This document shows, in pieces, positions 6,359-50,423 of a stretch of DNA of 64,000 bases. Source of the stretch: Aureimonas altamirensis (GTDB lineage Bacteria; Pseudomonadota; Alphaproteobacteria; Rhizobiales; Rhizobiaceae); the NCBI RefSeq assembly GCF_001463885.1, contig NZ_BBWQ01000008.1, positions 1 to 64,000 on the forward strand. The letters are read 5' to 3'. How positions within the stretch are numbered: position 1 is the first letter of the stretch; the number at the start of each line of letters is the position of its first letter. The translations under genes were made by a program, and so were the position numbers. The notes below the pieces were generated by a model. It worked only from the letters and a program-made list of their open reading frames with translations. It did no database searches and was not told the origin of the DNA.

Positions 6359-6366
6359 CGGCCCGG

Positions 6367-7905
6367 TCAGCCCGTATAGCCGAAGGCGACGGGCGGGTTC
6401 GCAGCCGTTTCCACCCACACGCTCTTGACCTGCGTGTAGGCGTGCAGGGCTTCCAGCCCGCTGGAGCGGCCATAGCCGCTGCGGCCGAAACCGCCGAAGG
6501 GCGACATGACGTTGATGGTCTTGTAGCCGTTTATCCAGAAGGTGCCCGCACGCACGCCGGCCGCGACACGATGCGCGCGCCCGACATCGCCGGTCCAGAC
6601 TGCGCCGGCCAGGCCGTAAGGCGTCGCATTGGCCAGCGCGATGGCTTCCTCTTCCGTATCGAAGGGCATGACGGCGACGACCGGGCCGAACACCTCTTCG
6701 CGGGCGATCTCCATCTCCGGCTTCACATGATCCAGGATCGTCGGCGCAAAGAAATAGCCGCCCGTTTCCGCCAATGCACCGCCTGCCGGCCCGCCGGTGG
6801 CCAGCCTTGCCCCATCCGCGACGCCCCGTGCGACCATCTCGCCGATCTTGTCGAACTGACGGCCATTGTTGATCGGTCCGATCTGCGTATCCGCAGAGGC
6901 CGGATGCCCGAACGGGATCTTTTCCGCCGCCCTGGCATAGCGCTCCACGAAAGCCGAGTGGATGGAGCGATGCACCAGAAGGCGGGAGCCGGCGACGCAG
7001 CTTTGCCCCGCGCCTCCGAAGATGGCGGATTGCGCCCCCAGGATCGCCCTGTCGATGTCGGCATCGGGAAAGACGATGTTGCCGGATTTGCCACCCAGTT
7101 CGAGGATGCAGGGCACCGTTTTGCGCGCCGCAGCCGTTGCGACGGCGACACCGCCCGCCGCCGAGCCGACGAAGACCACAAGCCCCGTCGCGTCATGCGC
7201 CACGGCTGCCGCGCCGGTGGTTGCGCCCGCTCCGGCCAGGACGTTGACCAGGCCCCGCGGCGCGCCGGCCTTTTCGCACAGACGGCCGAGCACGATGGTG
7301 GACAGCGGAGTCAGTTCCGACGGCTTGATGACGACGCCATTGCCGGCCGCCAGCGCCGGAGCGATCTGCCATCCGCCGGTAAACAGCGGTGCGTTCCAGG
7401 GCGTGATCTGCGTGACGACGCCGATGGGCTCGCGCCGCGTGTAATTGAGGTGGCTGCTGGGCACCGGGATGACCTCGCCATGCAGCTTGTCGCACCAGCC
7501 GGCGTAATATTCGAACATTTCGGCGACGCGGACGGCTTCGCCGCGCATGTCGCGGATCGGCCGGCCGGCGGAGCGGCATTCCATCTCGGCGATGGCCTCG
7601 GCATTGGCACGCACGAGGCGTCCCACCTCGTACAGGATGCGGCCCCGGGCCGAACCTGTGAGGGCGGCCCACTCTTTCTGGGCACGCGTGGCGGCGTCCA
7701 TCGCGGCGTCGACCACCGTTTGCCCCGCATCGCGGAAGCTGGCGAAGACGCGGCCGTTGGCGGGGTCGGTCAGATGGAGCGTTTCGCCGGTGCCGGCCAC
7801 GATCGCGCCATCGACCAGGCTGCCGATACGCCCACCGGGGATCAGGCCGGCGACAAGCTCTTCGATGCGGTCGGTCTGGTCGGGTGCGTTGTGCGCGTCA
7901 TCCAT
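6367..7905 (-). CDS. Aldehyde dehydrogenase family protein
   Basis: NAD(P)-dependent aldehyde dehydrogenase, 512 aa, normal family length. Asn171 (PWN), Lys194 (IKPSE), Glu269 (LELGG) and nucleophile Cys303 (GQSCVAG) match the catalytic set. It oxidises an aldehyde to the acid in the cytoplasm; the substrate is not predictable. The ATG at 7905 lies inside the 3' end of the upstream HIBADH-type gene (8-bp overlap), so both are co-translated. It is the last gene of a minus-strand run starting near 12353. Confidence 0.93.
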   Translation of the reverse strand: MDDAHNAPDQTDRIEELVAGLIPGGRIGSLVDGAIVAGTGETLHLTDPANGRVFASFRDAGQTVVDAAMDAATRAQKEWAALTGSARGRILYEVGRLVRANAEAIAEMECRSAGRPIRDMRGEAVRVAEMFEYYAGWCDKLHGEVIPVPSSHLNYTRREPIGVVTQITPWNAPLFTGGWQIAPALAAGNGVVIKPSELTPLSTIVLGRLCEKAGAPRGLVNVLAGAGATTGAAAVAHDATGLVVFVGSAAGGVAVATAAARKTVPCILELGGKSGNIVFPDADIDRAILGAQSAIFGGAGQSCVAGSRLLVHRSIHSAFVERYARAAEKIPFGHPASADTQIGPINNGRQFDKIGEMVARGVADGARLATGGPAGGALAETGGYFFAPTILDHVKPEMEIAREEVFGPVVAVMPFDTEEEAIALANATPYGLAGAVWTGDVGRAHRVAAGVRAGTFWINGYKTINVMSPFGGFGRSGYGRSSGLEALHAYTQVKSVWVETAANPPVAFGYTG

Positions 7906-24371: not shown

Positions 24372-25046
24372 ATGCGCATGGAAACCGCCTTCCTGTTCGA
24401 TCTCGACGGAACGCTCGTCGACAGTGTCTATCAGCATGTGCTGGCGTGGAAGCACGCGCTGGACGAAGAGGGCATCGCCCTGTCCGTCTGGCGCATCCAC
24501 CGGCGCATCGGCATGAGCGGGGGCCTTTTCACCAACCAGCTCCTGCGGGAAACCGGGCAGGACCTGACGGTCGAGCGCATGGAGCGGCTGCGCCACCTTC
24601 ATGCCGAAGCGTATCAGGCGCAGAAAGCCAGCGTCCAGCCGCTGCCCGGCGCGCGCGCGCTGCTGCAATGGCTAGGCGAAGCCGGCATACCATGGGCCAT
24701 CGCCACCAGCGGCCGCATGGAAACCGCGCGCGTCAACCTTGAGGCGCTCGGCGTCGACCCGGACCGCTCCGTTGTCGTCACACGAGATCAGGTGCGTTAC
24801 GCCAAACCCGACCCGGACCTGTTCCTGGCCGCCGCCGACAGGCTCGGATTTCCGATCGGCAATTGCATGGTGGTGGGCGACGCGATCTGGGACATGCTGG
24901 CCGCAACGCGTGCGCGCGCACTGGGTATCGGCCTTCTCAGCGGCGGCTACGGGCGGGAAGAGCTGCAACAGGCCGGAGCCATCCGCGTCTATGACGATCC
25001 GGCCGATCTTCTTCAACATATCGATGAGGTTGGCGGACGCCGCTAA
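24372..25046 (+). CDS. HAD-superfamily phosphatase (beta-phosphoglucomutase/GPH-like)
   Basis: 224-aa HAD hydrolase: motif I FLFDLDGTLVDS (nucleophile and acid Asp), motif II in AIATSGR, motif III Lys in YAKPDPDLF and motif IV VVGDAIWDM, with a helical cap in residues 17-80. It likely dephosphorylates a small sugar phosphate, possibly as overflow control for the cluster. ATG at 24372 is preferred to 24345. Its last 4 bp overlap the convergent phosphoribosyltransferase gene. Confidence 0.9.
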   Translation: MRMETAFLFDLDGTLVDSVYQHVLAWKHALDEEGIALSVWRIHRRIGMSGGLFTNQLLRETGQDLTVERMERLRHLHAEAYQAQKASVQPLPGARALLQWLGEAGIPWAIATSGRMETARVNLEALGVDPDRSVVVTRDQVRYAKPDPDLFLAAADRLGFPIGNCMVVGDAIWDMLAATRARALGIGLLSGGYGREELQQAGAIRVYDDPADLLQHIDEVGGRR

Positions 25047-25681
25047 TCCAGATCGTGAAGAAAAGTTTCCGGCATCGGAACCCAGTTGCCGCCGTCGTTA
25101 CGGAACTGGGGTATATGCGCTAGGCTGTGGATCAGCCCTGCATCATCCCCCAGGGTCTCGAGCCAGTCGCGCGCTTCGGTCAGGATGACGCCAAGGCCGA
25201 CGACGTCGCCGCCGGCCCGCCTGACGAGGTCGGCCGCACCCTTCAGGCTGGAGCCTGACGCCACGACATCGTCCACCACGACCACGCGCTTGCCGGCGAT
25301 CAGCGGCACGGCCTGGCGGTCCAGCAGCAATTGCTGCTCGCGGGTCGAGGTGATGGAGGAAATCGTCTGCACCAGCGCATCGCCGAGATGGATCTTGGGA
25401 GATTTCTGCAGCACGACATACCGGTCGAGGTTCAGTGCCCGCGTCGTCTCGATGGCTACAGGAATGCCGAGTGTGGCCGGCCCGACGATGATGTCCGGGC
25501 GCAGCGGCGCCAGTTTGTGCGCAAGCGCCGCGCCCGCATGGGCGCCGAACCGGACGCCGAGATCGATGACCATCATCAGCGAGATGGCGAAGTCCGGTTT
25601 GATGGCGACGATCGGAAGTTCGATGGCAAGGCCGGCGACATCGACCGTCCAGTGCTGGCCGGTCATGGGGGACTGCGTCAT
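25043..25681 (-). CDS. Type I phosphoribosyltransferase (nucleobase salvage type)
   Basis: 212-aa PRTase with the PRPP-binding loop VVVVDDVVASGSS and an apt-like core. It would attach PRPP to a purine or pyrimidine base taken up from outside. Its ATG overlaps the EcfT stop, so it is translationally coupled to an ECF transporter and is best read as the enzyme that traps the imported compound. Adenine PRTase is the closest pattern, but the base is not certain. Confidence 0.85.
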   Translation of the reverse strand: MTQSPMTGQHWTVDVAGLAIELPIVAIKPDFAISLMMVIDLGVRFGAHAGAALAHKLAPLRPDIIVGPATLGIPVAIETTRALNLDRYVVLQKSPKIHLGDALVQTISSITSTREQQLLLDRQAVPLIAGKRVVVVDDVVASGSSLKGAADLVRRAGGDVVGLGVILTEARDWLETLGDDAGLIHSLAHIPQFRNDGGNWVPMPETFLHDLD

Positions 25682-26352
25682 ACGGTGCCGCTCCTTGGGG
25701 GCAAGGTGGGCTCTACCAGCAGGCCGACATGACGCCAGGTGGTGCGCTTGCGACGCATGTCGAAGCCGTTGATGGCGAGTGACAGGGAAATGGCATGCGC
25801 CATGCGCACGGCCTGAACCAGTAGCGGCACGCCGCGTGCAAGCGAGTAGCGCAGCCGCGTATAGAAGGGCACGTCGTCTATCTCCATGCCCCGGGCCCGC
25901 TGCGCATCGGCAATGCGCTGGAAATCCTCGCGCAGCATCGGAATGATGCCGAAGGTCAGCGACAGCACCAGCGTTACCACGGGCGGCAGGCGCGCTGCGC
26001 TGCATGCGGCCAGGATGGAACCGGGGGTGGATGTCTCCATGACGAAATAGAAGGCGGCCGTCGTGGTAACGAGCCGCGCCGCCATGCCCGCCGCCACCGG
26101 GATCGCCTCCTGCCACGGCATGCCCTGTATCGCCAGGTTGACGATCCAGCTTGCCATGACCAGCAGAACCAAAAGGCTGGCGCCCTTCAGATAGGCCGAC
26201 AGGCCCGGGACGCCGGCTGCCGCCAGAAACAGGACGGTGAGTGCCGCGATCGGCACGCCCCACCACCAGCCGGGCACCGCCCATGCCACCACCATCAGTG
26301 CGAAGGCGAGCCCCAGCTTGACGAAGAAATTGATGTCGTGGAAGCGCGTCAT
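25678..26352 (-). CDS. ECF transporter T component (EcfT)
   Basis: 224-aa energy-coupling membrane scaffold, about five to six helices, with the cytoplasmic coupling helix motifs RARGMEIDD and INGFDMRRK (the second usually reads ARGF). It links the ATPase to the substrate-binding S component. It overlaps the neighbouring genes by 4 bp on both sides. Confidence 0.9.
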   Translation of the reverse strand: MTRFHDINFFVKLGLAFALMVVAWAVPGWWWGVPIAALTVLFLAAAGVPGLSAYLKGASLLVLLVMASWIVNLAIQGMPWQEAIPVAAGMAARLVTTTAAFYFVMETSTPGSILAACSAARLPPVVTLVLSLTFGIIPMLREDFQRIADAQRARGMEIDDVPFYTRLRYSLARGVPLLVQAVRMAHAISLSLAINGFDMRRKRTTWRHVGLLVEPTLPPRSGTV

Positions 26353-27866
26353 GCCGCTGCCCCGATGGCGGCATGACGGGGCGCGCGCCAGCCGAGGGCG
26401 GCAAAGGCCGGCGCGGACCAGGCCCGCCGCGTTTCGCCGTCGTAGCTTATGGCGCCGCTATCCAGGACAAGAAGCCGTTCGGTCACGTCGTCCACCATAT
26501 CCAGATCGTGAGAGATGATCAGCACCGCGCCGCCGCGCCGCGTCTGCGCCTTAAGGAAGGTGTCCAGCATCTGCCGGCCATGCAGGTCGCGGCCGAAGAG
26601 CGGCTCGTCCAGAATAGCCACGGCGGCCTGCGCGGCGTCGGCGCAGGCAAGGCCAAGCAGCGCCTGCTGGCGGGCGGAGAGGGCGAAGGGATTGGCCTCC
26701 GCAAGGGCGGTGAGCCCATAGGTGGCCAGCGCCGCCGAAGCCCGATTTTGGGCATCGTCGTCGGCCGGCCCGCCGGCCGTTACGGCAAACACCACTTCCT
26801 CCCGCACCGTCATGTTGAACAGGACGCGCCGCATATTCTGCGGCAGATAGGCGAGCGAACGCGCGCGGCGCGCGACAGTCCAGCCCGACGCGTCCGCGCC
26901 GTCGATCACGATGCGGCCGGCGATAACCGGCGCAAGCCCCAGCAACACCTGGAACAGCGTGGTCTTTCCTGCTCCGTTGCGGCCGATCAGCCCCACGACT
27001 TCGCCCGCCCGCAGGCGGAAACCGGCATTGGACAAGACGGGCTGCCCGTCGCACCGCCGCAACCGGGTGCGAACCCCTTCCACGACAAGCCGTTCCGGGC
27101 CTGGTGCCACCGTATCCAGCCGTCCGCGGCGGCTTGCCGGGGCGATGAGCCCGCATGCGGCCCATGCAGCGTCGTCGGAAAGGCATTCGGCGGTCGGCTG
27201 ACGCCCGGTCAGCCGGCCGTTTCGCAGCAGGTGGACGGCGTCGGCCAGTTTCTCGAAGGGAACGGCGTTCTCTTCCGTTATGAGGATACCCATCCTGTCG
27301 GTGGAGGCGCGCTCCAGCAGCGCAACCAGCCGCACTGTGGCGGCAGGGTCGAGCCCGGTCGTTGGCTCGTCCAGCACCAGATAGCGGGGATTGCCCGCCT
27401 GCGCCGCCGCCAGCGCGACCATGCGCCGCTCTCCGCCGGACAGCGTCAGCACCCGCCGCCCACGCAAGGCGTTCAGCCCGAAATCATGGATCAGCGCGTT
27501 GACGCGCTCGCGTATAGCGGGTTTCGCCATCCCGTGGTTTTCCAGCGGGAAGGCGATCAGGTCTTCCACGCCGAGATCCCACAACTGGTCCTCGACGTTC
27601 TGGCCGACAGAGCCGACCGCGCCGAACAGGGAGCCGCGGTCCAGCCGCCCGGCATCTTCCCCGCCGACGCGGTGGATGCCGGAATAGACGGTGGGTGTCA
27701 CCAACCGTGGAACGATCCCTGCGGCGACAGAGGCAAGGGTGGATTTGCCGGCACCGGCGCTGCCGCAGACGAGCAGCCTTTCGCCGGGTTCCAGCGTAAG
27801 GGAGCAACCGTCGAGCACGGGTGCAGCGTCGCCATGCGCGACGACAATGTCTTTGAGTTCGAGCAC
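26349..27866 (-). CDS. ECF transporter ATPase with two fused nucleotide-binding domains
   Basis: 505-aa fusion of EcfA-like domains. NBD1 has Walker A GSAGAGKST, signature LSGGERR and Walker B YLVLDEPTTGL. NBD2 has Walker A GRNGAGKTT, but its signature reads LSARQQA instead of LSGGQ, and Walker B is VAILDEPLFG. Fused NBDs are also seen in YkoD-type dedicated ECF systems. It lies 7 bp after the S-component gene. The odd second signature suggests unequal ATP sites. Confidence 0.92.
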   Translation of the reverse strand: MLELKDIVVAHGDAAPVLDGCSLTLEPGERLLVCGSAGAGKSTLASVAAGIVPRLVTPTVYSGIHRVGGEDAGRLDRGSLFGAVGSVGQNVEDQLWDLGVEDLIAFPLENHGMAKPAIRERVNALIHDFGLNALRGRRVLTLSGGERRMVALAAAQAGNPRYLVLDEPTTGLDPAATVRLVALLERASTDRMGILITEENAVPFEKLADAVHLLRNGRLTGRQPTAECLSDDAAWAACGLIAPASRRGRLDTVAPGPERLVVEGVRTRLRRCDGQPVLSNAGFRLRAGEVVGLIGRNGAGKTTLFQVLLGLAPVIAGRIVIDGADASGWTVARRARSLAYLPQNMRRVLFNMTVREEVVFAVTAGGPADDDAQNRASAALATYGLTALAEANPFALSARQQALLGLACADAAQAAVAILDEPLFGRDLHGRQMLDTFLKAQTRRGGAVLIISHDLDMVDDVTERLLVLDSGAISYDGETRRAWSAPAFAALGWRAPRHAAIGAAA

Positions 27867-27873
27867 GATGGGA

Positions 27874-28443
27874 TCAGAAGCGCGTGAAACCGGTAGGGTG
27901 AGCCGATTTTAGCAGCTTGATCGCCGGTCGCACAAGCAGCGGCGTTCCGATCAGCATGGGCACGATGTCCGAAAGGCCCAGATACATGACCGCCCACCAG
28001 AAGGGGAATATGCCAAGCCAGGCCAGGCTGGCGGATACCGCAACCACCATGACCAGCCCAACGATCAGGCAGGTTGCCGCAAGTTTGACCAGCGCCGGCA
28101 TGTCGAACTTGGTGCGGGCCGGGTCGAACAGCATGCCGGGAACGAGCCCCGTCAGGCCCACCATGACGCCATCGACGATCAGCGAGTGCGCGGGGATGAA
28201 CGTCCCGGCAAGAAGAGACCAGACGATCGTTCCGAGATAGCCGCAGATGAATCCGCTTTTCCAACCCAGCAGAATGCCGACCAGCGGCGGCAGGAAGGCG
28301 AAGATGCGCCACTGGATGACACCCGGCACCAGTTGGATCGGGTTGGCGTAGGCCCAAAGCACGCCCGTTGCGGCGGCCGCCACGATAGAGAGGACCAGGG
28401 GGAAGAGCGTATTGCCCTCGTGGGGCGCGGCGGTGGTGGACAT
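27874..28443 (-). CDS. ECF transporter S component (substrate-binding membrane subunit)
   Basis: 189-aa membrane protein with about six helices, including GILLGWKSGFICGYLG and IVDGVMVGLTGLVPG, the style of ECF S components. It is the only substrate-determining subunit of this dedicated transporter. The downstream phosphoribosyltransferase suggests a nucleobase; YkoE-like hydroxymethylpyrimidine uptake is the main alternative. ATG at 28443 fits the sigma-54 promoter 33 bp upstream; a start at 28485 would overlap it. Confidence 0.82.
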   Translation of the reverse strand: MSTTAAPHEGNTLFPLVLSIVAAAATGVLWAYANPIQLVPGVIQWRIFAFLPPLVGILLGWKSGFICGYLGTIVWSLLAGTFIPAHSLIVDGVMVGLTGLVPGMLFDPARTKFDMPALVKLAATCLIVGLVMVVAVSASLAWLGIFPFWWAVMYLGLSDIVPMLIGTPLLVRPAIKLLKSAHPTGFTRF

Positions 28444-28475
28444 GAAAGAAACCTTTTGTGTTGCCCATTCGAGGA

Positions 28476-28491
28476 TGCAATCCACGTGCCA
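28476..28491 (-). promoter_or_regulatory. Sigma-54 (RpoN) promoter for the ECF transporter operon
   Basis: On the minus strand TGGCACGTGGATTGCA matches the -24/-12 consensus TGGCACG-N4-TTGCW, missing only the weak R position. The predicted transcription start is near 28465, giving a leader of about 22 nt to the S-component ATG. I found no clear NtrC-type enhancer site by eye in the divergent region. Confidence 0.75.
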
Positions 28492-49767: not shown

Positions 49768-49899
49768 CAAGGTTCTCGGGGCGGGGTGAAACTCCCCACC
49801 GGCGGTATAGCCCGCGAGCGCCTGCCGGCAACGGCAGGGTCAGCAGAGTCCGGTGAGATTCCGGCGCCGACGGTTACAGTCCGGATAAGAGAGAACGGC
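49768..49899 (+). ncRNA. FMN riboswitch (RFN element)
   Basis: The leader has the RFN consensus segments in order: GGGGCGGGGTGAAACTCCCC, ACCGGCGGTATAGCCCGCGAG, CAGAGTCCGGTGAGATTCCG and GCCGACGGTTACAGTCCGGA, closed by a basal stem GTTCTC (49772-49777) with GAGAAC (49891-49896). It binds FMN and turns down ribH2 when flavin is ample. Confidence 0.95.
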
Positions 49900-49905
49900 C
49901 AGTAC

Positions 49906-49932
49906 CCCGTGCAAACGTCAGGTTTGCGCGGG
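49906..49932 (+). promoter_or_regulatory. Riboswitch expression-platform hairpin
   Basis: CCCGTGCAAAC and GTTTGCGCGGG pair over 11 bp (one G-U) around GTCAG, directly after the RFN element and 54 bp before the ribH2 ATG. With no U-tract, control is more likely at translation or through Rho than by intrinsic termination. Confidence 0.55.
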
Positions 49933-49985
49933 TGCCTGCCAGTTTGCGGCCCGAATCCTGTTCAACACCTGTTCTGGATGCCGCA

Positions 49986-50423
49986 ATGACAAACAACCTC
50001 AGGATAGCTTTCATCAAGGCCCGCTGGCATGCCGACATCGTCGATCGGGCCCATGCGGGGTTTGCCGAAGCGATGTCGCAAAGCGGCCGGCCGCACACGT
50101 TGGACAGCTTCGATGTGCCCGGCGCTTTCGAGATGCCGCTACTTGCCCAGAAGCTCGGGCACAGCGGGCGATACGACGCCATCGTCGCCGCCGCGCTGGT
50201 GGTGGATGGTGGCATCTACCGCCACGACTTCGTTGCGGCCGCCGTGGTGAACGGCCTTATGGACGCCCAGATGAAGACGGGCGTGCCAACCTTCTCGGTG
50301 TCGCTGACCCCGCATCACTTTCAGCCCTCGGCCGAGCATGTGGCCTTTTTCACCGAGCATTTCGTCAAGAAGGGCAAGGAGGCCGCCGCGGCTGTGCTGG
50401 CCATTGCCGATCTCGGCATCTAG
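49986..50423 (+). CDS. ribH2: 6,7-dimethyl-8-ribityllumazine synthase, RibH2 type
   Basis: 145-aa lumazine synthase, the penultimate riboflavin step, joining the ribityl-uracil and a four-carbon phosphate. DSFDVPGAFEMPLLAQ and the ALVVDGGIYRHDFVA stretch (with the catalytic His) fit the family. The stand-alone copy behind an FMN riboswitch is the RibH2 pattern of Brucella and Mesorhizobium, where a second copy (RibH1) lies with other rib genes. ATG at 49986. It ends overlapping the convergent GlpD-like gene by 4 bp. Confidence 0.92.
   Translation: MTNNLRIAFIKARWHADIVDRAHAGFAEAMSQSGRPHTLDSFDVPGAFEMPLLAQKLGHSGRYDAIVAAALVVDGGIYRHDFVAAAVVNGLMDAQMKTGVPTFSVSLTPHHFQPSAEHVAFFTEHFVKKGKEAAAAVLAIADLGI

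Follow-up and report, generated by a model that had tools for sequence, protein, structure and literature searches.

A conserved group I ECF transporter operon with its own phosphoribosyltransferase, a predicted sigma-54 promoter and a probable purine base as substrate

A four-gene ECF operon on the minus strand

The 64-kb stretch of Aureimonas altamirensis DNA analyzed here (the window) carries a minus-strand operon, spanning 28443–25043, in which the genes for an S component, a fused double ATPase, EcfT and a phosphoribosyltransferase (PRTase) follow one another in that order (Table 1). All parts of the four-gene unit claimed in a preliminary description of this DNA were found in place. The unit had also been called tightly overlapped, which is true of the ATPase/EcfT and EcfT/PRTase junctions, both ATGA overlaps, but not of the S-ATPase junction, where the genes are separated by a 7-nt gap. 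An alternative in-frame start of the S gene, GTG 28485, lies upstream of the predicted transcription start, and homologues align to the ATG at 28443. On one side, a HAD hydrolase gene is convergent with the operon, with overlapping stops, and on the other a KefC-like antiporter gene is divergent from it; neither is part of the four-gene unit.

Table 1. Position of the ECF operon, its predicted promoter and leader, and the riboswitch region elsewhere in the window
Feature	Coordinates	Strand	Description
Sigma-54 (RpoN) promoter, predicted	28476..28491	-	-24/-12 elements TGGCACG-N4-TTGCA, perfect consensus; position recurs in related loci
Predicted 22-nt leader	28444..28465	-	Weak purine-rich Shine-Dalgarno-like stretch (AAAGG)
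ECF S component (substrate-binding)	27874..28443	-	189 aa, six predicted helices; ATG 28443, stop 27874-27876
Fused double ECF ATPase	26349..27866	-	505 aa, GTG 27866; two ABC domains with conserved asymmetry
EcfT transmembrane coupling component	25678..26352	-	224 aa, ATG 26352; two ARG tripeptides, residues 153 and 172
Type I phosphoribosyltransferase (PRTase)	25043..25681	-	212 aa, ATG 25681; PRPP motif VVVVDDVVASGSS
FMN riboswitch	49768..49900	+	100.5 bits; only Rfam element in the window
ORF downstream of the FMN riboswitch	49932..50423		163 aa, looks like lumazine synthase (RibH)

The S, ATPase and EcfT proteins form a group I ECF transporter

The S component has no match to Pfam or NCBIfam at 0.001 and no curated family is over its cut-off; PF12822 gives an E-value of 0.0038 and 17.7 bits, below the cut-off of 30.7, and the sequence profile has no match in the PDB. 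The AlphaFold2 model (pLDDT 82) identifies it by its predicted fold as an S component: the best 15 Foldseek matches are all S components, with Z scores of 16.8 for 4hzu_S (the best), 14.8 for ThiT and 14.4 for FolT. EcfT is over the cut-off for PF02361 CbiQ (E 9e-18) and matches the EcfT chains of solved ECF complexes at E ~4e-5. The ATPase has two PF00005 domains, and its nearest families, TIGR04521 and TIGR04520, both score below cut-off. Among 64 aligned homologues, NBD1 keeps LSGGE and has its H-loop His replaced by Q/E, while NBD2 keeps the His and has the signature LS[A/S]R[Q/E]. One composite ATP site thus looks complete and the other degenerate, an asymmetry that, to our knowledge, is unusual for ECF ATPases. 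The three genes are contiguous in the window and in related loci, all components being dedicated and encoded together. With the S fold, EcfT, two ATPase domains and co-encoding all present, these proteins constitute a group I ECF transporter.

A sigma-54 site is conserved upstream of the S gene

We defined a sigma-54 element as TGGCAY-N5-TTGCW with GG-N10-GC spacing at a conserved position, and TGGCACGTGGATTGCA, upstream of the S gene, agrees with this definition throughout. Searching the 64-kb window with TGGCAYRNNNNTTGCW, one mismatch allowed, returned TGGCACGTGGATTGCA as the sole match. Chance alone predicts 1.88 such matches in the window, so the lone match is non-significant by itself, and its conservation across loci was therefore examined. 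A scan for the S gene over 84 980 species genomes yielded 67 loci. In 35 of them a sigma-54 site precedes the S gene by 48-67 nt, where background predicts 0.04 per locus (binomial 9e-30, with loci counted as independent and relatedness ignored). GG and TTGC are invariant in all 37 aligned sites (37/37) while the flanking columns vary, and the DNA around the recurring sites is otherwise unalignable. Because the site recurs at the same place so far above expectation, the comparative evidence says that it is functional.

By the established rule that +1 falls 12 nt after the C of the -12 element, transcription is predicted to start at 28465, giving a 22-nt leader before the S ATG. The preliminary description had proposed an almost perfect RpoN promoter with a leader of this length, and had inferred RpoN control from its position. 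The site proves to be a perfect consensus with correct spacing, the leader length agrees, and RpoN control now stands on the recurrence of the site in related loci. The genome also has rpoN. An Rfam search found no element at the promoter or leader, and riboswitch control of the ECF operon was rejected, as Rfam finds only the FMN riboswitch (Table 1).

Distribution and two exclusive regulatory forms

S proteins are 59-97% identical across the 67 loci, the closest homologue (97%) being from Aureimonas altamirensis; even the cyanobacterial S components are 59-61% identical and retain many invariant residues. A PRTase gene lies downstream of EcfT in 66 of the 67 loci, in Rhizobiales, Rhodobacterales, Rhodospirillales and cyanobacteria. 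The preliminary description had called for counting how often S homologues occur with a PRTase and with RpoN sites, and the counts, 66 and 35 of 67, bear out both associations. The transporter and its near-constant PRTase partner are a conserved and previously uncharacterised group I ECF system. In a genome titled Mycobacterium sp. KBS0706 (L074), which is probably mislabelled, the S gene is nearly the same as in Inquilinus limosus.

The predicted regulation of the operon, described here for the first time, is of two kinds that exclude each other. In the sigma-54 form (35 loci), there is a single PRTase and the site stands before the S gene. In the LysR form (25 loci), the S gene is preceded by a divergent LysR gene and by the gene of a second PRTase (PRT2), with no sigma-54 site there. 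None of the 67 loci has a sigma-54 site together with LysR and PRT2 (Fisher p = 3.4e-13, with loci treated as independent and relatedness ignored). Six loci have neither form: three from cyanobacteria, one on a short contig (L067), L075, and L085, which has a sigma-54 site at -142. In one further locus (L086), a LysR gene is present and a gene of SLOG fold replaces PRT2; its product, a SLOG cluster4 protein (6361-6993 of that locus), is encoded between LysR and the S gene, the place of PRT2 in other LysR loci. The S tree requires at least three switches between the forms, with its deep branches in the sigma-54 state. The PRTase downstream of EcfT (PRT1) makes up a single clade within the alphaproteobacteria, and PRT2 falls outside that clade.

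The distribution of the system is patchy. It was found in nine of 151 genomes of a family-level sample and in six of 397 at order level, own genome counted; the operon PRTase occurs in three of 21 genomes looked at within the genus (own counted), and an S profile search over a phylum-wide sample of 398 genomes found none beyond the window's own genome. Since the S tree mixes genera, these patterns suggest horizontal transfer.

Other sigma-54 sites and the nitrogen link

Sigma-54 promoters of this type usually signal nitrogen shortage, and the operon had been described at the outset as nitrogen-scavenging. The 4.19-Mb genome has seven perfect sigma-54 sites, against four for a reversed-pattern control. 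In six cases a start codon follows 20-75 nt downstream, and the seventh site is inside a gene. Besides the ECF operon, the six precede the genes for UrtA (urea uptake); a BMP ABC transporter operon that also encodes a CN hydrolase, a biuret amidohydrolase and an allophanate hydrolase, the latter two scoring over curated cut-offs (own genome C9:44000-62000, L098, 6700-16100); a nitrate/taurine-type ABC system, upstream of which a cytosine-deaminase-like gene lies on the opposite strand; a nitrate-type ABC operon adjoined by a divergent PAS/AAA+ sigma-54 activator gene (C5:136000-150000, L100, 5497-10767); and a flavin monooxygenase. These other perfect sites, before urea, biuret and nitrate/taurine-type systems, are the strongest support for nitrogen-scavenging control of the ECF operon, which is supported but unproven.

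The shared sites of the urea and biuret operons thus favor the original claim, and the results for the activator count against it. No NtrC-type GCAC-N-GTGC site is conserved in the 250-300 nt upstream, and a search of the DNA preceding the sigma-54 sites for NtrC-like or de novo palindromic activator sites brought up nothing above the shuffled background; activator and nitrogen signal are therefore both putative. The lack of a shared activator site of any kind within 250-300 nt would also suit an operon that depends on sigma-54 but answers a specific non-nitrogen signal through another activator, and the perfect site at L100 does adjoin a dedicated activator gene of its own. We consider this somewhat unlikely, given that the fellow perfect sites before urea and biuret operons point to a nitrogen regulon.

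The phosphoribosyltransferase and its substrate

The operon PRTase is over the cut-off for PF00156. By sequence and by model, its nearest solved relatives are Thermus thermophilus APRT2 and adenine phosphopsicosyltransferase, followed by Bacillus subtilis XPRT, which assigns it to the adenine/xanthine (purine) branch of the type I PRTases, with APRT2, AgmE and XPRT, as judged from homology. It scores 31.9 bits against canonical APRT (TIGR01090, cut-off 185.85) and 99.5 against NF004689 (PRK06031, cut-off 175), both below cut-off. NF004689 is a sister subfamily, to which the PRTases of the cyanobacterial ECF loci belong. In an Aureimonas relative without an ECF-linked PRTase, a member of this sister subfamily is encoded with an M20-type amidohydrolase, a nucleoside hydrolase and a TRZ/ATZ-family (deaminase-like) hydrolase (L121, 5318-9615), possibly a separate nucleoside salvage cluster.

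The substrate of the system is probably a purine base. The branch of the PRTase speaks for this, as do the PRTase set of this genome (below), the nucleoside hydrolase and TRZ/ATZ-type amidohydrolase beside the sister PRTase in that congener, and the use of that sister subfamily by the cyanobacterial ECF loci. Adenine is the leading candidate, although we put it forward with slightly less than even confidence. It is suggested by the absence of any canonical APRT over cut-off from a genome that encodes HGPRT, XGPRT, Upp and PyrE as separate genes. This absence is weak evidence, since 12 of the 14 carriers tested have a canonical APRT alongside the system and one congener (G079) has neither APRT nor the system; as proof of function it was rejected for these reasons. 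All six genomes tested also have adenine deaminase, which gives adenine a second route. A single ligand would fit the S proteins, whose identity remains at 59-61%, with many invariant residues, even in cyanobacteria.

A non-standard purine-like base, such as a cytokinin or other N6-substituted adenine, a deazapurine or a queuosine precursor, which the PRTase would convert to its nucleotide, is an unlikely substrate but one with several points in its favor. Many carriers are plant- or soil-associated, ordinary purine PRTases, APRT among them, are already present in most, and one LysR locus has the SLOG-fold gene in place of PRT2. In addition, queuosine precursors have ECF families of their own (PMC11130926), and TthAPRT, possibly a protein other than the 6fsp/5zgo chain, weakly accepts some N6-substituted adenine analogues (PMC6317416). 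Against it, no queuosine or cytokinin gene was recognised among the neighbours scanned beside the operon, and the sister PRTase adjoins nucleoside hydrolase and deaminase-like genes.

A pyrimidine substrate (uracil, cytosine or hydroxymethylpyrimidine), a class allowed for in the preliminary description, is quite improbable, given a PRTase of adenine/xanthine type and separate upp and pyrE genes in the genome. The best fold match of the S model, 4hzu_S, is labelled an HMP S component (PMC5037267), and YkoEDC shares the make-up of S component, fused ATPase and T component; S-component fold likeness, however, tracks ligand poorly, Rfam finds no TPP riboswitch in the window and no thiamine gene was seen beside the operon. 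Finally, two PRTases in 25 loci, the reuse of type I PRTase folds as regulators and the presence of PurR among the fold matches could be taken to mean that the PRTase serves as a regulator sensing PRPP or a base, like PurR or PyrR, instead of as a salvage enzyme, but this is very improbable for a protein that has no DNA-binding domain and whose PRPP motif, with two invariant Asp, is kept in both PRT1 and PRT2.

Proposed mechanism

Taken together, we lean toward a dedicated group I ECF system that imports a purine nucleobase, with adenine the likeliest, and works with its own PRTase in a sigma-54 nitrogen-scavenging regulon. The S component would bind the base outside the cell, and the asymmetric double ATPase and EcfT would drive its release inside, where the PRTase would combine it with PRPP to give a nucleotide unable to leave the cell. 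In the lineage of the window, RNA polymerase with sigma-54 and a putative activator would transcribe the operon as part of that regulon; the sigma-54 promoter would give way, in other lineages, to a LysR regulator with a second PRTase.

Comparison with known systems

The preliminary description knew of no characterised ECF system with this make-up, and our literature searches for PRTase- or NtrC-associated ECF systems likewise found nothing relevant. YkoEDC, a group I ECF transporter for thiamine/HMP (PMC5037267), also has a dedicated S component, a fused double ATPase and a T component in one operon, but it is Gram-positive, controlled by a TPP riboswitch and without a PRTase; the S proteins are set side by side here by description only. 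QueT/QrtT, ECF S components for queuosine precursors (PMC11130926), share the uptake of a purine-derived base, and are set apart, again by description, in that no PRTase or sigma-54 link is reported in that paper.

The nearest solved relatives of the PRTase, T. thermophilus APRT2 (5zgo, 6fsp) and adenine phosphopsicosyltransferase (7f06), are 29-32% identical to it; the operon PRTase has a longer C-terminal part, and for these relatives we know of no transporter link. In Bacillus subtilis, xpt-pbuX places a xanthine PRTase and a xanthine permease in one operon. The uptake-and-trap logic of a PRTase co-operonic with a transporter is the same, whereas xpt-pbuX combines a secondary permease with a purine riboswitch and the system described here combines an ECF importer with sigma-54.

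Known ECF transporters take up vitamins and metal ions. We see an even chance that the present system is the first ECF family to serve an ordinary purine nucleobase, almost always accompanied by a PRTase of its own, and that its sigma-54/nitrogen-starvation control has repeatedly been exchanged for LysR and a second PRTase with the S component almost unchanged. If so, the ECF class would extend to nucleobase salvage and be linked to the nitrogen economy of plant- and soil-associated bacteria. The either/or regulation makes both substrate and signal testable, as the LysR effector, the PRTase substrate and the S ligand would be expected to be the same molecule or close relatives.
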